Shown here piece after piece: positions 3,001 through 54,700 of a stretch of DNA of 64,000 bases. The stretch spans positions 62,001 through 126,000 of the forward strand of contig JBAIAA010001568.1 of assembly GCA_037893245.1 (NCBI GenBank), written 5' to 3'. The position numbers and the translations under genes were made by a program. A model generated the notes under the pieces. The model saw nothing but the letters and a program-made list of their open reading frames with translations, had not been told where the DNA came from and did not search any database. How positions within the stretch are numbered: position 1 is the first letter of the stretch; each line of letters begins with the position of its first letter. This DNA is from Crossaster papposus (taxonomy: Eukaryota > Echinodermata > Asteroidea > Velatida > Solasteridae).

Positions 3001-6000
3001 AAGAAGTGTGCATAAGAAATATGTAAAGGGAAAGAAGTGTGCATAAAAAATATGTAAAGGGAAAGAAGTGTGCATAAGAAATATGTAAAGGGAAAGAAGT
3101 GTGCATAAGAAATATGTAAAGGGAAAGAAGTGTGCATAAGAAATATGTAAAGGGAGAGAAGTGTGCAAAAGAAATATGTAAAGGGAAAGAAGTGTGCATA
3201 AGAAATATGTAAAGGGAAAGAAGTGTGCATAAGAAATATGTAAAGGGAAAGAAGTGTGCATAAGAAATATGTAAAGGGAAAGAAGTGTGCATAAGAAATA
3301 TGTAAAGGGAAAGAAGTGTGCATAAGAAATATGTAAAGGGAAAGAAGTGTGCATAAGAAATATGTAAAGGGAAAGAAGTGTGCATAGGAAATATGTAAAG
3401 GGAAAGAAGTGTGCATAAGAAATATGTAAAGGAAAAGAAGTGTGCATAAAACATATGTAAAGGGAAAGAAGTGTGCATAAGAAATATGTAAAGGGAAAGA
3501 AGTGTGCGTAAGAAATATGTAAAGGGAAAGAAGTGTGCATAAGAAATATGTAAAGGGAAAGAAGTGTGCATAAGAAATATGTAAAGGGAAAGAAGTGTGC
3601 ATAAGAAATATGTAAAGGGAAAGAAGTGTGCATAAGAAATATGTAAAGGGAAAGAAGTGTGCATAAGAAATATGTAAAGGGAAAGAAGTGTGCATAAGAA
3701 ATATGTAAAGGGAAAGAAGTGTGCATAAGAAATAAACACATGATGTCGGGACAAGCCCTCGAGTTAAATATGTAAAGGGAAAGAAGTGTGCATAAGAAAT
3801 AAAAAAGGGAAAGAAGTGTGCATAAGAAATATGTAAAGGGAAAGAAGTGTGCATAAGAAATATGTAAAGGGAAAGAAGTGTGCATAAGACATATGTAAAG
3901 GGAAAGAAGTGTGCATAAGAAATATGTAAAGGGAAAGAAGTGTGCATAAGAAATATGTAAAGGGAAAGAAGTGTGCATAAGAAATATGTAAAGGGAAGGA
4001 AGTGTGCATAAGAAATATGTAAAGGGAAAGAAGTGTGCATAAGAAATATGTAAAGGGAAAGAAGTGTGCATAAGAAATATGTAAAGGGAAAGAAGTGTGC
4101 ATAAGAAATATGTAAAGGGAAAGAAGTGTGCATAAGAAATATGTAAAGGGAAAGAAGTGTGCATAAGAAATATGTAAAGGGAAAGAAGTGTGCATAAGAA
4201 ATAAACACATGATGTCGGGACAAGCCCTCGAGTTAAATATGTAAAGGGAAAGAAGTGTGCATAAGACATATGTAAAGGGAAAGAAGTGTGCATAAGAAAT
4301 ATGTAAAGGGAAAGAAGTGTGCATAAGAAATATGTAAAGGGAAAGAAGTGTGCATAAGAAATATGTAAAGGGAAAGAAGTGTGCATAAGAAATATGTAAA
4401 GGGAAAGAAGTGTGCATAAGAAATATGTAAAGGGAAAGAAGTGTGCATAAGAAATATGTAAAGGGAAAGAAGTGTGCATAAGAAATATGTAAAGGGAAAG
4501 AAGTGTGCATAAGAAATATGTAAAGGGAAAGAAGTGTGCATAAGAAATATGTAAAGGGAAAGAAGTGTGCATAAGAAATATGTAAAGGGAAAGAAGTGTG
4601 CATAAGAAATATGTAAAGGGAAAGAAGTGTGCATAAGAAATATGTAAAGGGAAAGAAGTGTGCATAAGAAATATGTAAAGGGAAAGAAGTGTGCATAAGA
4701 AATATGTAAAGGGAAAGAAGTGTGCATAAGAAATATGTAAAGGGAAAGAAGTGTGCATAAGAAATATGTAAAGGGAAAGAAGTGTGCATAAGAAATATGT
4801 AAAGGGAAAGAAGTGTGCATAAGAAATATGTAAAGGGAAAGAAGTGTGCATAAGAAATATGTAAAGGGAAAGAAGTGTGCATAAGAAATATGTAAAGGGA
4901 AAGAAGTGTGCATAAGAAATATGTAAAGGGAAAAAAAGTGTGCATAAGAAATATGTAAAGGGAAAGAAGTGTGCATAAGAAATATGTAAAGGGAAAGAAG
5001 TGTGCATAAGAAATATGTAAAGGGAAAGAAGTGTGCATAAGACATATGTAAAGGGAAAGAAGTGTGCATAAGAAATAAAAAAGGGAAAGAAGTGTGCATA
5101 AGAAATATGTAAAGGGAAAGAAGTGTGCATAAGAAATATGTAAAGGGAAAGAAGTGTGCATAAGAAATATTTAAAGGGAAAGAAGTGTGCATAAGAAATA
5201 TGTAAAGGGAAAGAAGTGTGCATAAGAAATATGTAAAGGGAAAGAAGTGTGCATAAGAAATAAACACATGATGTGGGAACAAGCCCTCGAGTTAAATATG
5301 TAAAGGGAAAGAAGTGTGCATAAGAAATAAACACATGATGTGGGAACAAGCCCTCGAGTTAAATATGTAGAGGGAAAGAAGTGTGCATAAGAAATATGTA
5401 AAGGGAAAGAAGTATGCATAAGAAATATGTAAAGGGAAAGAAGTGTGCATAAGAAATATGTAAAGGGAAAGAAGTGTGCATAAGAAATATGTAAAGGGAA
5501 AGAAGTGTGCATAAGAAATATGTAAAGGGAAAGAAGTGTGCATAAGAAATATGTAAAGGGAAAGAAGTGTGCATAAGAAATATGTAAAGAGAAAGAAGTG
5601 TGCATAAGAAATATGTAAAGGGAAAGAAGTGTGCATAAGAAATATGTAAAGGGAAAGAAGTGTGCATAAGAAATATGTAAAGGGAAAGAAGTGTGCATAA
5701 GAAATATGTAAAGGGAAAGAAGTGTGCATAAGAAATAAACACATGATGTCGGGACAAGCCCTCGAGTTAAATATGTAAAGGGAAATAAGTGTGCATAAAA
5801 AATATGTAAAGGGAAAGAAGTGTGCATAAGAAATACGTAAAGGGAAAGAAGTGTGCATAAGAAATATGTAAAGGGAAAGAAGTGTGCATAAGAAATATGT
5901 AAAGGGAAATAAGTGTGCATAAGAAATATGTAAAGGGAAAGAAGTGTGCATAAGAAATATGTAAAGGGAAAGAAGTGTGCATAAGAAATATGTAAAGGGA

Positions 6001-28644: not shown

Positions 28645-28647
28645 TAA
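28645..28647 (+). repeat. Target site duplication TAA, left
   Basis: TAA immediately precedes the outer inverted repeat. The same TAA follows the right inverted repeat at 32900-32902, and the uninterrupted satellite unit has one TAA at this place (GCATAAGAAAT). A 3-bp duplication follows if the element begins with TAGTGGGG. Confidence 0.75.
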
Positions 28648-28987
28648 TAGTGGGGCGGCTTAGCTGATCAATTGTGCACTTTCCCTTAAAAGCATGAAAC
28701 TTGGCACATGGTTAGAGTAACACAATACAAAGATTTTTAGTCCAGGGGCCACCGGAAATTGCACCCCGTATGGCGGCTATCTTGGATTTCAAAATGGCCG
28801 CCATTGTGGATCTGTTTTGTTGAATATCTCCTTAACTGGTAGAGATATCGAGACAGTTGAAACGCCTATACCCACATTTTAGGGGTCTAGGAATCCATTG
28901 GTGACATAAAAGTTTGAAAATTGTGGCCGCCATCTTGAATTCCAAGATGGCCACCATCCACGAGCTATTTTGCTCAATATCTCATGA
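28648..28987 (+). repeat. Left terminal inverted repeat (340 bp)
   Basis: Reads TAGTGGGGCGGCTTAGCT at the tip and CTCAATATCTCATGA at the inner end. It matches the reverse complement of 32550-32899 with few substitutions. The main difference lies just inside the tip, where the left arm has GATCA and the right arm has a run of nine As followed by TGGCG (in the same orientation). The high identity indicates recent insertion or maintenance. Confidence 0.95.
28781..28888 (+). repeat. Internal direct repeat, copy 1 (108 bp)
   Basis: Begins CTTGGATTTCAAAATGGCC and ends TATACCCACATTTTAGGGGTCT. A diverged second copy of the same length lies at 28934-29041, a period of 153 bp. Both contain a GATGGC/AATGGC motif at the start, an ATATCTC block in the middle and the TATACCCAC..TTTAGGGGTCT end. 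Confidence 0.8.
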
Positions 28988-29041
28988 AGTAGTAAAGATA
29001 TCAATACATTTTTAACACCTATACCCACGTTTTAGGGGTCT
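28934..29041 (+). repeat. Internal direct repeat, copy 2 (108 bp)
   Basis: Diverged partner of 28781-28888, from CTTGAATTCCAAGATGGCC to TAGGGGTCT. Its last 54 bases extend beyond the part shared with the right arm, so this is the surviving centre of the outer element. The retroelement starts immediately after it. Confidence 0.75.
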
Positions 29042-29063
29042 TCTCCTCTCCTGCGAGCTGGAC

Positions 29064-29651
29064 TTGGGCCCATCTGCATCGGCAACCGGGCCGGCCGCGT
29101 TCTCGCGCGGACTGTCCGAGGAGGGCTTTAAACGGGTGAGGTTCCTGGCGGAAGGCGTCAGCGCTTTGACGGCTGCCGGGGAGCGCATCGCCCGCCAGGT
29201 GCGGCTCCTTTCCCGGTCGGTCGAGACTGGCACGCCGCCACCCTGTATCAAGGTGGACGTGCGGCCGCCGCATCTGCGCCGATCTCTGAGGTTTCAGAGT
29301 TCGTTCCGGGATCGTTGGAGCGGTCTCCGGAGGGGAGCATCGTTGCTGTTCGCGGGAATCTCGCTGGAGGGGTGCACGCACCGGCTGCCAGTCGCCGGGG
29401 ACCGGCTCGCCGGCGCCGGAAGCTCGGCGCAGGAAGGGCTTGCTGGGGGTTTCCAGGGTCGGGACCATTCTGCCGCTCGGAGGCTCCTTGACCCTGTCGG
29501 CCCAACGGGGGCGTCGGGAGGGGGCGACAGCCCTGAGCCGATCTCTGACCACTGCGGGGCCGAGCAGTCCTTTTCGGGGCTGCCACGCCTTCTCGGGGGA
29601 GGTGGGTCCGTCATTTTGCCCTTATTATTGTATGGTGGCTGTAATAAATAA
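29064..29651 (+). pseudogene. Possible 5' open reading frame of the Penelope-like element
   Basis: A 195-codon + strand frame from ATG to TAA, in a different frame from the reverse transcriptase, ending where two overlapping AATAAA hexamers occur. I do not recognise the product. The N-terminal third (residues about 10-60) is charged with regularly spaced Leu, Ala and Arg and could be helical; the C-terminal half is Gly- and Ala-rich and low in complexity. It shares the G-rich, A-poor composition of the downstream frame, so its openness may also come from loss of As in stop codons. It may be an accessory frame of the element or a fragment of another element. It is most likely non-functional. 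Confidence 0.4.
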
Positions 29652-31779
29652 ACTGGAATGTGGCCCATCCTGCATTGTCTGTTGTATCCGGGCCATTGGT
29701 CTCTTGGCTGCCGTGGCGGGAGGAGAACTCGACGGGAAAGCTGAGGGATCGCTTGGTCGGTCGAGGTCTGGCCGTTTCTCGGGCGGGTGCGGATCGAGAG
29801 CCGGGCGAGCCGGCTCCAGTCATTTGCGCTCGCTGGCGGTGCGGTGCCGGTCCTTCGTGGCAGGCCTATCCGGGGCGGCACTGTCGCGGACCGAAGCAGT
29901 TGCTTTGGGAAGGGGTTTAGGTTTCGTGCCTGCTCCTGCTGGGCCGGGCCGCGGAGCGCTTTTAGGTGGCGTGAGTGCCTTCAGTCGAAGGCTGGGAGTT
30001 GCATTCTTGGTGCGTGATGGGCGCTCCAGGGGCCATCCTTTCGGGCCGCCATCGGGCTGGCGACCTGAGTCGTCCCCTGGTGCAACGCTGGAAGAGTGCT
30101 TGGAGGCCGCTGGGTTCGAGCTGGCCCGTGTCGGGCTGGGGAGTCGGCGGGCGGACGTGACCGCGCGGGATTTGTCCGACATGGGTGGACTCGGGAACGG
30201 TCCTGACATCGTGGTCGAGCCGTGTGGCGGGGGCGGGGGCATTTGCATTGTGGGCCGCTCGGATTATCTACGGGTGGGTTGCCGCCGCCTTGAGTCCCAT
30301 CGCTGTGCCCAGCTGGACCGGGTTGTTGCCCCGCAAACTGTTGCGATGGTTCGCGGCACACTCGTGGAGGTGAGAGGCGGCAGGCGCATCGGCAGCGATG
30401 CTCTGAGGTGCCTCGGCCCACTTCTGCGGAGCTGTCAGTGTCCGGCCATGTGTTTTCTCCCCAAGGTGCGCGGGGCACCGCCACCGGGAGGGCCTTTTGT
30501 TGGACGTCCAATTGTGGGTGGTTGTACTGGCCCTACGGCGGGGGTTTCAGAGTGCATAGACTGCTTCCTTCTTTCCATGGTGGCCGCGCGGCCCACATGT
30601 GTCCGCTATACGGCGGACGTTTTGCGCGGGCTGGAGGAGGGACATTTTTCGCGGGATGTCCTGGTCGCGAGTATGGATGTTGTTTCTATGTGCACCGGTG
30701 TCCGACGGGCGGGGGCGGTCCAATGTGTTTGCGGTGCCCTCGAGGGCGCAGGCCGTTGCCGCCCAATCGCGGAACCACCTTCAATTTGCATCCGGGGGCT
30801 TCTGGAACTCATCCTCGGTCGCGGCTGCTTCCGTTTCGGGAGTGGGTTCTTTCTCCGGAGGGTTGGTTGTGCGGTGGGCTCCGCATCAGGCCCTGAAATT
30901 TGTGACGTCGCCCTGCACGGCTTCGAGGGCAAAGTGGTCCAGGGGGCGGGTGGCATCCTTGCATGGTGGCGCTGCGGAGGCGACATGTTGGTCATCTGCA
31001 ACGGAGCTCTGAACGAGTTCCGGGGTCTAGTCGCGGAGGTGGGCGGGATGCGCCCAACTCTAAGGTTTGCATGCGGGGCCTCTGAATCATCAATCGGCTA
31101 CCTTGACTTGACCATATTTGAAGGAGACCGTTTCCATGGGGCAGGAGTCCTGGACGCCGGGGTCTGCACGGGGCCGGCGGAGGCCTTCCAGTATATCCGT
31201 GGGGCATCATCCCGCCCACCCCGTATTTTCAAGGCGTTCATGTGCGGGGAGGCGCTCCGCTGCGCTAGGGGCGCCGGCAGCGCGGATGGTTTCCGCAGCG
31301 GAGTCGAGGTGTTCTCGGAGAGGCTAACCACGGGAGGCTGCACTTCCGGTGAAGTCGGAGCGGCAGCAGCCGGGGTCTCACGTGCCGACCGATCGAGACT
31401 GGTGCACGGCGCAGGGGATGGAGAGGGAGCAGGACGGGCTCCGCTTGTCTTCGCAGCCACCTGCAGCCCAGCCATGGATCGCGGTGACATGTGTCGAGCG
31501 GTGGGCAGGCACTGGAGCTTGATCGAGGGCAGTCGGGTGCTCTCGGAGCTTTTACCGAGGCCTCCTTTTGTTGCCTTCGAGGGGGCCCAGAGCATTCGAG
31601 AGAGGTTGGTGAGAGCTGAGCTGCCACAGCGGGGGCGGGGGCTCGAGCCGCTCCCGGCAGACTCTGACTTTTTCGAGCAGCCTGCTGAGCCGGTCGAGGC
31701 CCTCAACATGTTGCTCTCCTTGCTGGGGGGCGGTCTGAAGCCGGCTGGCGGACGTGTGGCTCGGTCCAAGCTTGCATGA
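29440..31779 (+). pseudogene. Penelope-like reverse transcriptase, catalytically dead
   Basis: A 779-codon frame; family similarity runs from about residue 141 to 730. Recognisable in order: the pre-RT segment with GRGLGFVP (157-164); DIVVEPCGGGGG (256-267), where the family has a Lys-Pro-Ala-Asp-Lys-Gly-Gly block; CFLPKVRG (338-345); GRPIVGGC (355-362); motif A with Asp413 in SMDVVSMCTG; the motif B region GCAVGSASGP (476-485); motif C at 509-515, reading WWRCGGD where a Tyr-x-Asp-Asp is required; LDLT (555-558); and the C-terminal APLVF, HWSLIEGS and LVRAEL blocks (667-728). Conserved Tyr, His, Lys, Asn and Asp are repeatedly replaced by Cys, Arg, Gly or Ser, each explained by A to G. Lys, Asn and Tyr are nearly absent. 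The GIY-YIG endonuclease is missing; residues 731-779 are translated 3' untranslated sequence. The upstream ATG is not trustworthy. Confidence 0.85.
29643..29652 (+). promoter_or_regulatory. Two overlapping AATAAA hexamers
   Basis: AATAAATAAA on the + strand, at the stop codon of the 195-codon frame and just after ATGs of the reverse transcriptase frame. It may be a polyadenylation signal of an upstream element fragment, or chance. It stands in a short stretch (about 29610-29690) that is less G-rich than its surroundings. Confidence 0.35.
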
Positions 31780-32058
31780 TTGGAGTGTGCCCGGTCCCAG
31801 CCGCAACCTCTCTGCGAGTCAGCTTCGATTCTTTTTGGGTCACCCATTTGCAGCTGACGAGTGCTGCAGCGGGGCGCGAAAGCATGCTGGTTGTCCAACC
31901 GGCTGGAGTCGCTCAGTCTCTTGTGTCCGCCCAATGTGCATTTTGGTTTGGACGTAGCCGGCGAAGACTGGGTCATGCTTGGGGTCCATTTTGGGCCGGA
32001 ACGGGTCGGGAGAGGGGGAGTGTCGCTGGGTGGGATGGTGCCATCTCATTTCTAAAAT
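31630..32058 (+). repeat. Retroelement 3' region, copy 1 (A-to-G hypermutated)
   Basis: Aligns with 32059-32549 over its whole length. It starts directly after the last recognisable reverse transcriptase residue and includes the frame's stop codon and a ribozyme remnant. Where the two copies differ by a purine, this copy has G and the other A at about 85 sites in my hand alignment, with one site reversed. It lacks 57 bp present in the second copy (32320-32376), with CT microhomology at the junction. Confidence 0.95.
31850..31889 (+). ncRNA. Hammerhead ribozyme remnant, inactivated
   Basis: Counterpart of 32281-32324 in the hypermutated copy. The core CTGACGA (31854-31860) and GAAA (31878-31881) remain. 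Stem II is GTGC/GCGC with a U-G wobble where the intact copy has U-A. The base after CU is G at 31889, which is not allowed at the cleavage position. The 3' strand of stem I is gone because a 57-bp deletion begins there. Not expected to cleave. Confidence 0.75.
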
Positions 32059-32549
32059 CAAAAGCAAAAGCTCGAACCACTCCCAACAGACTCTGGCTTT
32101 TTCGAACAACCTACTGAACCAGACGAAACCCCTTAACATATTGCTCTCCTTACTGGAGGAACAATCTGAAACCGACTAACAAACATATGGCTCAATCCAA
32201 ACTTACATGATTGGAATATACCCAATCCCATCCACAACCTCTCTGCGAGTCAGCTTCGATTCTTTTTGAATCACCCATTTGCAACTGACGAGTGCTACAG
32301 CAAGGCACGAAAGCATGCTATTGCTATCAAGAGGATTTGTAAACATAATCCTCTGCTCGCACCTCTAATCACATCTGATTATCCAACCAACTAAAGTCAC
32401 TCAATCTCTTATGTCCACCCAATATTTAAATTTTGACATAACCGGCAAAGACTAAGTCATGCTTAAAATCCATTTTAAGCCAAAACAAGTCAAGAGAAAG
32501 GGAGTGTCACTGAATGGGATAGTGCCATCTCATTTCTAAAATTCTAAAA
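32059..32549 (+). repeat. Retroelement 3' region, copy 2 (not hypermutated)
   Basis: Tandem copy of the preceding repeat without the G enrichment, consistent with a 5'-truncated second insertion or a terminal repeat of the same element. It has a complete hammerhead motif (32281-32324), followed by a perfect 8-bp inverted repeat (AGAGGATT 32330-32337, AATCCTCT 32347-32354, 9-nt loop), and ends with TTCTAAAATTCTAAAA next to the right arm of the outer element. No coding potential is visible. Confidence 0.9.
32281..32324 (+). ncRNA. Hammerhead ribozyme motif, type I, intact core
   Basis: Segments in order: stem I 5' strand GCAA (32281-32284); core CTGACGA (32285-32291); stem II GTGC (32292-32295), 9-nt loop and GCAC (32305-32308); core GAAA (32309-32312); very short stem III GC-AT-GC (32313-32318); T then A (32319-32320), giving the cleavable triplet CUA with predicted cleavage after 32320; stem I 3' strand TTGC (32321-32324), fully complementary to GCAA. 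All required core bases are present. The stem III sequence GCATGC is self-complementary, which suits cleavage as a dimer, as described for retroelement hammerheads. Role inferred from the family: processing of tandem transcripts of Penelope-like elements. Found by eye; outer stem I pairing and activity are untested. Confidence 0.8.
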
Positions 32550-32899
32550 TCATGAGATATTGAGCAAAATAGCTCGTGGATGGTGGCCATCTTGGAATTC
32601 AAGATGGCGGCCACAATTTTCAAACTTTTATGTCACCAATGGATTCCTAGACCCCTAAAATGTGGGTATAGGCGTTTCAACTGTCTCGATATCTCTACCA
32701 GTTAAGGAGATATTCAACAAAACAGATCCACAATGGCGGCCATTTTGAAATCCAAGATGGCCACCATACGGGGTGCAATTTCCGGTGGCCCCTGGACTAA
32801 AAATCCTTGTATTGTGTTACTCTAACTATGTGCCAAGTTTCATGCTTTTAAGGGAAAGTGCACAATCGCCATTTTTTTTTGAGCTAAGCCGCCCCACTA
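32550..32899 (-). repeat. Right terminal inverted repeat (350 bp)
   Basis: Reverse-complement partner of 28648-28987. It is about 10 bp longer because of a T9 run (about 32872-32880 on the + strand) near the tip. The inner end TCATGAG abuts the TTCTAAAA repeats that end the retroelement. Confidence 0.95.
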
Positions 32900-32902
32900 T
32901 AA
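32900..32902 (+). repeat. Target site duplication TAA, right
   Basis: Right partner of the TAA at 28645-28647. TWA 3-bp duplications are typical of PIF/Harbinger transposons, but the terminal sequence alone does not settle the superfamily. Confidence 0.75.
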
Positions 32903-51700: not shown

Positions 51701-54700
51701 AGGGAAAGAAGTGTGCATAAGAAATATGTAAAGGGAAAGAAGTGTGCATAAGAAATATGTAAAGGGAAAGAAGTGTGCATAAGAAATATGTAAAGGGAAA
51801 GAAGTGTGCATAAGAAATATGTAAAGGGAAAGAAGTGTGCATAAGAAATATGTAAAGGGAAAGAAGTGTGCATAAGAAATATGTAAAGGGAAAGAAGTGT
51901 GCATAAGAAATATGTAAAGGGAAAGAAGTGTGCATAAGAAATATATAAAGGGAAAGAAGTGTGCGTAAGAAATATGTAAAGGGAAAGAAGTGTGCATACG
52001 AAATATGTAAAGGGAAAGAAGTGTGCATAAGAAATATGTAAAGGGAAAGAAGTGTGCATAAGAAATATGTAAAGGGAAAGAAGTGTGCATAAGAAATATG
52101 TAAAGGGAAAGAAGTGTGCATAAGAAATATGTAAAGGGAAAGAAGTGTGCATAAGAAAGATGTAAAGGGAAAGAAGTGTGCATAAGAAATATGTAAAGGG
52201 AAAGAAGTGTGCATAAGAAATATGTAAAGGGAAAGAAGTGTGCATAAGAAATAAACACATTATGTGGGAACAAGCCCTCGAGTTAAATATGTAAAGGGAA
52301 AGAAGTGTGCATAAGAAATAAACACATGATGTGGGAACAAGCCCTCGAGTTAAATATGTAAAGGGAAAGAAGTGTGCATAAGAAATATGTAAAGGGAAAG
52401 AAGTGTGCATAAGAAATATGTAAAGGGAAAGAAGTGTGCATAAGAAATATGTAAAGGGAAAGAAGTGTGCATAAGAAATATGTAAAGGGAAAGAAGTGTG
52501 CATAAGAAATATGTAAAGGAAAAGAAGTGTGCATAAGAAATATGTAAAGGGAAAGAAGTGTGCATAAGAAATATGTAAAGGGAAAGAAGTGTGCATAAGA
52601 AATATGTAAAGGGAAAGAAGTGTGCATAAGAAATATGTAAAGGGAAAGAAGTGTGCATAAGAAATATGTAAAGGGAAAGAAGTGTGCATAAGAAATATGT
52701 AAAGGGAAAGAAGTGTGCATAAGAAATATGTAAAGGGAAAGAAGTGTGCATAAGAAATATGTAAAGGGAAAGAAGTGTGCATAAGAAATATGTAAAGGGA
52801 AAGAAGTGTGCATAAGAAATATGTAAAGGGAAAGAAGTGTGCATAAGAAAGATGTAAAGGGAAAGAAGTGTGCATAAGAAATATGTAAAGGGAAAGAAGT
52901 GTGCATAAGAAATATGTAAAGGGAAAGAAGTGTGCATAAGAAATATGTAAAGGGAAAGAAGTGTGCATAAGAAATATGTAAAGGGAAAGAAGTGTGCATA
53001 AGAAAGATGTAAAGGGAAAGAAGTGTGCATAAGAAATATGTAAAGGGAAAGAAGTGTGCATAAGAAATATGTAAAGGGAAAGAAGTGTGCATAAGAAATA
53101 AACACATGATGTGGGAACAAGCCCTCGAGTTAAATATGTAAAGGGAAAGAAGTGTGCATAAGAAATAAACACATGATGTGGGAACAAGCCCTCGAGTTAA
53201 ATATGTAAAGGGAAAGAAGTGTGCATAAGAAATATGTAAAGGGAAAGAAGTGTGCATAAGAAATATGTAAAGGGAAAGAAGTGTGCATAAGAAATATGTA
53301 AAGGGAAAGAAGTGTGCATAAGAAATATGTAAAGGGAAAGAAGTGTGCATAAGAAATATGTAAAGGAAAAGAAGTGTGCATAAGAAATATGTAAAGGGAA
53401 AGAAGTGTGCATAAGAAATATGTAAAGGGAAAGAAGTGTGCATAAGAAATATGTAAAGGGAAAGAAGTGTGCATAAGAAATATGTAAAGGGAAAGAAGTG
53501 TGCATAAGAAATATGTAAAGGGAAAGAAGTGTGCATAAGAAATATGTAAAGGGAAAGAAGTGTGCATAAGAAATATGTAAAGGGAAAGAAGTGTGCATAA
53601 GAAATATGTAAAGGGAAAGAAGTGTGCATAAGAAATATGTAAAGGGAAAGAAGTGTGCATAAGAAATATGTAAAGGGAAAGAAGTGTGCATAAGAAATAT
53701 GTAAAGGGAAAGAAGTGTGCATAAGAAATATGTAAAGGGAAAGAAGTGTGCATAAGAAATATGTAAAGGGAAAGAAGTGTGCATAAGAAATATGTAAAGG
53801 GAAAGAAGTGTGCATAAGAAATAAACACATGATGTGGGAACAAGCCCTCGAGTTAAATATGTAAAGGGAAAGAAGTGTGCATAAGAAATATGTAAAGGGA
53901 AAGAAGTGTGCATAATAAATAAACACATGATGTGGGAACAAGCCCTCGAGTTAAATATGTAAAGGGAAATAAGTGTGCATAAGAAATATGTAAAGGGAAA
54001 GAAGTGTGCATAAGAAATATGTAAAGGGAAAGAAGTGTGCATAAGAAATATGTAAAGGGAAAGAAGTGTGCATAAGAAATAAACACATGATGTCGGGACA
54101 AGCCCTCGAGTTAAATATGTAAAGGGAAAGAAGTGTGCATAAGAAATAATAAAGGGAAAGAAGTGTGCATAAGAAATATGTAAAGGGAAAGAAGTGTGCA
54201 TAAGAAATATGTAAAGGGAAAGAAGCGTGCATAAGAAATATGTAAAGGGAAAGAAGCGTGCATAAGAAATATGTAAAGGGAAAGAAGTGTGCATAAGAAA
54301 TATGTAAAGGGAAAGAAGTGTGCATAATAAATATGTACAGGGAAAGAAGTGTGCATAAGAAATATGTAAAGGGAAATAAGTGTGCATAAGAAATATGTAA
54401 AGGGAAAGAAGTGTGCATAAGAAATATGTAAAGGGAAAGAAGTGTGCATAAGAAATATGTAAAGGGAAAGAAGTGTGCATAAGAAATATGTAAAGGGAAA
54501 GAAGTGTGCATAAGAAATATGTAAAGGGAAAGAAGTGTGCATAAAAAATATGTAAAGGGAAAGAAGTGTGCATAAGAAATATGTAAAGGGAAAGAAGTGT
54601 GCATAAGAAATATGTAAAGGGAAAGAAGTGTGCATAAGAAATATGTAAAGGGAAAGAAGTGTGCATAAGAAATATGTAAAGGGAAAGAAGTGTGCATAAG

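Follow-up and report, generated by a model that had tools for sequence, protein, structure and literature searches.

We report that a 64,000-nucleotide stretch of the genome of the asteroid Crossaster papposus (contig JBAIAA010001568.1, positions 62,001 to 126,000 of the forward strand), hereafter the window and the source of all coordinates given below, carries what its sequence identifies as a Penelope-like retroelement (29042 to 32058, plus strand; delimited by composition, copy comparison and protein comparison) in which over half of the adenines appear to have been changed to guanine. Beside the edited copy lies a fragment of the element without such changes, an arrangement that appears to record RNA editing in the genome. 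In our reading, to which we give a probability of about 0.87, a sense RNA of the element was hyperedited by an ADAR-type enzyme in a long duplex and was then reverse transcribed and integrated. If this is true, the locus may be a genomic record of ADAR defence against a Penelope-like retroelement.

The edited 3' end of the element (copy 1; 31630 to 32058, plus strand, from copy-versus-copy alignment) is followed by a 5'-truncated second unit (copy 2; 32059 to 32549, plus strand), found to be unedited by copy alignment, composition and comparison of the C-terminus. Together, the long unit and the truncated unit form a partial tandem resembling the pseudo-long-terminal-repeat (pLTR) arrangement, and blastn identified no further copies of 29042-32549 in the window beyond these two units. 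In a computed global alignment of the copies, G in copy 1 faces A in copy 2 at 84 sites and the reverse occurs at a single site (sign test 84:1, p = 4e-24), with six other substitutions (copy 1/copy 2: two T/A, two G/T, one G/C and one C/T) and a few small indels. Expressed per site, 84 of 144 As in copy 2 read G in copy 1, compared with one of 102 Ts reading C. A first-pass annotation of this DNA had counted about 85 such one-way sites, in good agreement with the computed alignment, and had offered an 83-base example in which all differences were G/A; the example holds, but its coordinates (31952-32034 against 32433-32515) were out of register by three bases, and in register (31952-32034 against 32436-32518) 22 of 22 differences are G/A. 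The edits span 31631 to 32037 in copy 1, the final six As being intact. Copy 1 also lacks a 57-base stretch of copy 2 (32318 to 32374, plus strand), seen as a gap in the global alignment. Because the copies differ by this gap and by the six substitutions that are not A/G, their templates would not have been identical.

Three-frame translation and profile alignment place a reverse transcriptase frame of 715 codons plus a stop, recoded by A>G, at 29632 to 31779 (plus strand). Searched as it stands, the edited frame from 29671 (702 residues) matches nothing in Pfam or PDB at E values up to 10 nor, with a cut-off of E 0.001, any of 8000 scored candidates out of a 5.8-billion-protein collection. 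When the reverse transcriptase core was instead used as a query read with G permitted as a former A, 2207 of 8000 scored proteins matched at E <= 0.001, the top match sharing 67% identity with the query, and Patiria, Acropora, Mytilus and Pinctada are among the matches listed. An element recoded by A>G thus escapes ordinary homology search, and such fossils may be overlooked. The profile and column counts below use 120 listed proteins of the 2207 matching natural proteins, for which the listed Pfam domains include PF00078 and PF26215, with GIY-YIG in P0111 and P0115. We take these relatives to be Penelope-like from these domains and from recognised motifs; Penelope-like motifs also served to build the query. 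The Penelope-like label of the first-pass annotation is upheld by the alignment of the raw DNA to the profile of the 120 natural relatives, and on this sequence evidence the element is Penelope-like. The catalytic box of the relatives has been lost (RCGGD at 30970-30984), as have conserved residues along the whole frame, for which reason this reverse transcriptase copy is presumed dead. That the frame nonetheless stays open fits A>G, since this change removes stop codons. Regarding the endonuclease, the end of the frame resembles that of P0002 and P0004, whose listed Pfam domains omit PF01541, and endonuclease-deficient Penelope-like elements are described in the accessible text of PMC3846280.

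The two copies alone leave the original state ambiguous, and it is comparison with the protein relatives that settles the direction as A>G. Against the 120-protein profile, the raw DNA scores 311.5 nats over 608 codons with no change and 553.5 nats when A>G is allowed, a gain of 242 nats (+242.0 when recomputed with a second script). The other 11 substitution types all score below no change, C>G being next (295.4 nats, -16.2) and G>A falling 35 nats short. As controls, three back-translated unedited relatives lose even under their best type (-66, -68 and -82), and the same three gain 187, 225 and 229 after in-silico A>G. Individual columns point the same way. Counting a column as conserved when 80% or more of the 12 nearest relatives share its residue, and allowing that types may overlap, 225 columns comprise 141 identical and 84 different in the element; 69 of these differences fit A>G, six C>G, four T>G and one G>A, and three fit no single type. 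With the top four relatives A>G fits 84 of 97 differences. Across all 120 relatives at a 70% threshold, 95 of 197 columns differ (52 A>G, three G>A, 11 unexplained), and with the distant P0036-P0120 133 of 242 differ, A>G still being the largest class (54, with three G>A and 29 unexplained); the fit falls with distance because ordinary divergence accumulates. Furthermore, the C-terminus of P0002 and P0004 (...SLLEEQ...) matches copy 2, once a one-base shift into a different frame is allowed for, rather than copy 1 (...SLLGGG...). The earlier choice of copy 2 as the original state is therefore the one with which the relatives agree (69 of 84 fitting A>G, one G>A).

The probability that an A was changed depends on the base before it. 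Between the copies, the edited fraction by 5' neighbour is 16/20 after T, 41/59 after A, 22/42 after C and 5/23 after G (four-class p = 1.6e-4; G versus rest, Fisher p = 1.5e-4), close to the counts made in the first-pass annotation (17/19 after T, 6/25 after G). We compiled a second set, non-overlapping with the first, from codon positions where A is needed to encode a residue that the 12 nearest relatives conserve (aligned codons 29785-31623). Here 59 of 109 sites are edited, plus 11 of 15 with an ambiguous 5' purine, and the G fractions are 19/25 after T, 16/26 after A, 18/33 after C and 6/25 after G. Both sets give the order T>A>C>G (copies/coding set: T.80/.76, A.69/.62, C.52/.55, G.22/.24). 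A>G on the coding strand only, with this 5' profile, is the ADAR signature, and it points to an ADAR as the enzyme. The proposal of the first-pass annotation that copy 1 derives from a reverse-transcribed, ADAR-hyperedited RNA is accordingly supported by one-strand A>G in which a 5' U is favoured and a 5' G avoided. Hyperedited sites across Metazoa are likewise depleted of upstream G, according to the accessible text of PMC5625713.

The first-pass annotation rightly placed A>G changes in copy 1 but drew their extent too narrowly, the low-A state spanning about 29042-32058. A content is 10-19% per 100-base bin from 29101 to 32000, against 25-40% for bins in copy 2 and in the inverted arms flanking the element. 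The A-poor body is about 3.0 kb long (407 A in 3017 bases), which corresponds to an estimated 520-570 A>G changes at editing rates of 56-58%; its 5' limit, 29042, is fixed by the point at which a host-repeat match stops rather than by a measured edit. Since neither the inverted arms nor copy 2 are A-poor, the locus was not altered as a whole. ADAR editing of long duplexes saturates near 50-60% of As. Within the body, a permutation test identified an unedited island (29614 to 29658, plus strand) with 12 TA/AA in 45 nt, where the permutation maximum was nine and none of 2000 permutations reached 12. Within it lie the start codon (ATG, 29632) of the reverse transcriptase frame and the stop codon (29649-29651) of an A-poor upstream open frame found by three-frame translation (29016 to 29651, plus strand). 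Lack of pairing, a bound protein or absence of this 45-nt stretch from the antisense strand may account for the island.

These data lead us to propose that a sense transcript of the Penelope-like retroelement would have paired with an antisense transcript to form a long RNA duplex, in which an ADAR-type adenosine deaminase would have turned about 54-58% of As into inosine. A Penelope-type reverse transcriptase, probably acting in trans, would then have copied the edited RNA, inosine being read as G, and the copy would have inserted into a repeat that resembles a DNA transposon and itself lies in a 31-bp satellite. Because the coding strand shows A>G and hardly any T>C, it was the sense RNA that carried the edits and served as template. 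For the duplex, when self-pairing of the edited body is scored with the edits taken into account, it does not exceed chance (score 64; mean 65 and maximum 86.5 in 20 mononucleotide shuffles), and an intramolecular hairpin was rejected as the editing substrate. With no self-pairing above chance, the partner would have been another strand, e.g., an antisense transcript, and we infer a duplex formed from separate transcripts or from inverted copies. ADAR edits poorly near duplex ends. That the editing border lies at most 21 bases from the junction of the tandem units suggests that two RNA templates were used: this proximity is expected if the enzyme jumped to an edited RNA whose last bases had escaped editing. 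Synthesis would thus have started with copy 2, from an unedited RNA, and continued after the jump on a separate, edited RNA that gave copy 1 and the body. With edited and unedited units side by side in one tandem, template jumping becomes open to test. For Penelope-like elements an antisense template has been argued, with a sense template not excluded (accessible text of PMC3846280), and the sense template indicated here bears on this open question of template polarity. We give even odds to a broader proposition, that ADAR hyperediting serves as a strand label for Penelope-like copying: the template would have been sense RNA, the partial tandem would stem from a jump of the reverse transcriptase between an unedited and a separate hyperedited RNA, antisense transcription would supply the duplex, ADAR would disable the template, and the dead copy would still integrate as a record of defence.

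Several observations weigh against this account or parts of it. The downstream preference is unclear in the copies (A 32/57, G 10/20, C 25/35, T 17/32), where a downstream A is described for amphibians and invertebrates in the accessible text of PMC5625713. Fifteen of the 84 conserved differences misfit A>G with the 12 nearest relatives and 79 of 133 with the distant ones, and the relatives were recruited by a query partly read under the A>G assumption, the proteins themselves being natural. Editing stops 21 bases short of the junction with six As kept, making the coincidence close and inexact, and one uniform duplex leaves the unedited island at 29614-29658 unexplained. All DNA evidence comes from one locus and its two units, and it does not distinguish template jumping from two successive insertions.

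The last of these points underlies the best surviving rival, which keeps the same editing and dispenses with the jump: an unedited truncated copy 2 would have inserted first and a hyperedited copy later, at its 5' border. We regard this as a possible, if less favoured, order of events. Tandem and partial-tandem repeats are typical, and the six non-A/G substitutions and 57-base gap that separate the copies are in keeping with independent arrivals; however, the second insertion would have had to strike the border of the first, given the host-repeat match to the left of 29042 and a 5' end of the element that resembles the 3' unit no better than chance (scores 15, 15 and 14 against 95% shuffle levels of 19, 19 and 18).

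Returning to an edited RNA as the source of the change, we think it improbable that DNA was instead the substrate for A>G, whether of an ADAR-like enzyme that targeted the sense DNA strand in an RNA:DNA hybrid or of some other adenine deaminase. The accessible text of PMC12925331 does cite deoxyadenosine editing in vitro in DNA:RNA hybrids, but the edits here stop near the junction of copies 1 and 2 and spare both arms, and edits in first-strand complementary DNA would appear as coding-strand T>C, seen at one of 102 sites. Less credible still is an APOBEC-type DNA deaminase producing G>A in copy 2 from an original resembling copy 1. Read backwards, the data do show context dependence, G before G being changed at 39 of 54 sites and G before A at four of 23, but G>A fits one of 84 conserved differences and lowers the profile score, the C-terminus of the relatives matches the wrong copy for such a process, and some 3 kb beyond copy 2 are A-poor; we rejected it on profile score, conserved columns and C-terminus. 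Diversity-generating retroelements employ an error-prone reverse transcriptase that misreads A, and such an enzyme would accord with nearly all changes falling at A, but we rejected it as very improbable since the changes between copies are almost solely A to G (A->G 84, A->T 2, A->C 0) and follow the 5' order of a double-stranded RNA (dsRNA) deaminase. An element that is merely GC-rich, e.g., through horizontal acquisition or biased gene conversion, would suit a GC-rich body in a 34% GC window but is just as implausible and was rejected on composition, conserved columns and A-only loss: A is lost with a neighbour bias and T kept between copies (84/144 against 1/102), and conserved residues including the catalytic box are gone.

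In genomic retroelements, descriptions of hypermutation usually concern G>A or C>T. The G>A type is represented by APOBEC DNA editing of retroelements (accessible text of PMC2873906), which shares one-way clusters with the present case but runs G>A where ours runs A>G. Clustered A>G has been attributed to ADAR in Rous-associated virus, avian leukosis virus, human and simian T-cell leukaemia viruses (HTLV-2/STLV-3) and bovine leukaemia virus (BLV) proviruses, as far as the accessible text of PMC12925331 and PMC8025556 extends. These retroviral cases are alike in having clustered A>G in reverse-transcribed genomes, reaching nearly 50% of As in the avian examples, but the avian edits lie in U3 or an inverted-repeat region and the BLV edits in about 70 bp of three proviruses, whereas here about 3 kb of a genomic Penelope-like element is affected, with an unedited unit attached. 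Metazoan repeat hyperediting (PMC5625713, accessible text) is similar in its depletion of upstream G and its long near-perfect dsRNA from repeats; it is described in RNA, while here the edits are fixed in DNA, presumably through reverse transcription. Compared with Penelope-like elements with pLTRs (PMC3846280, accessible text; PMC11167929), the element shares the reverse transcriptase family and the full-length plus 5'-truncated partial tandem, with a candidate hammerhead-like motif below threshold; it differs in its body recoded by A>G and its transposon-like inverted flanks, and no GIY-YIG endonuclease was seen in the frame. We found no report of ADAR marks on a Penelope-like element, or of a whole retroelement so marked, in a partial literature search covering few subscription journals and no preprints. 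ADAR marks in reverse-transcribed genomes are known from retroviruses, and the Penelope-like case appears to be new within the literature searched, though an earlier report may have escaped it.

The hammerhead-ribozyme-like motif lies in copy 2 (32281 to 32324, plus strand) and matches Rfam RF02275 below threshold at 12.3 bits (gathering 52; E 1.2), being the sole match in a 91-base search and unreported in a 4.4-kb search. The 57-base stretch at 32318-32374 starts near the presumed hammerhead cleavage site and has an 8-bp perfect hairpin, found by eye. Rfam matches to mir-1269 and M23 scored below gathering and were discarded as chance. Scans of IMG/VR with the relatives returned 22 stretches, none of them confirmed, and with the satellite unit returned none.

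The element is enclosed by a terminal inverted repeat that is DNA-transposon-like and not A-poor. Its left arm (28648 to 28987, minus strand) was recognised by local alignment against the reverse complement of the right end and by composition, and its right arm (32550 to 32899, plus strand) by repeat pairs, composition and end alignment. The arms measure 340 and 350 bp, repeat pair I1 covering 317 nt at 99% complementarity, and both contain internal repeats. A further 54 bp (28988 to 29041) extend the left repeat to the start of the A-poor stretch through repeat pair I2 (28924-29041 against inverted 32649-32766; 118 nt, 78%). TAA borders both arms, at 28645-28647 and 32900-32902. Harbinger transposons have target-site duplications (TSDs) of 3 bp, and the TAA flanks may be a Harbinger-like TSD. 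Judging from these ends and flanks, the arms probably belong to a DNA transposon into which the Penelope-like element inserted; Penelope-like elements may likewise carry inverted pLTRs (accessible text of PMC3846280).

The surrounding host context is a 31-bp satellite, which Tandem Repeats Finder calls as one array across the whole window and in which 28648-32899 sits as a single foreign block. The left part of the array occupies 1 to 28647, the final unit before the element ending ...GCATAA at 28647, and the right part 32900 to 64000. Here and there a 36-bp insert interrupts the satellite to give a 67-bp unit, e.g., at 5227-5396 and 53065-53234, and a period of 67 appears in six repeat-finder rows.
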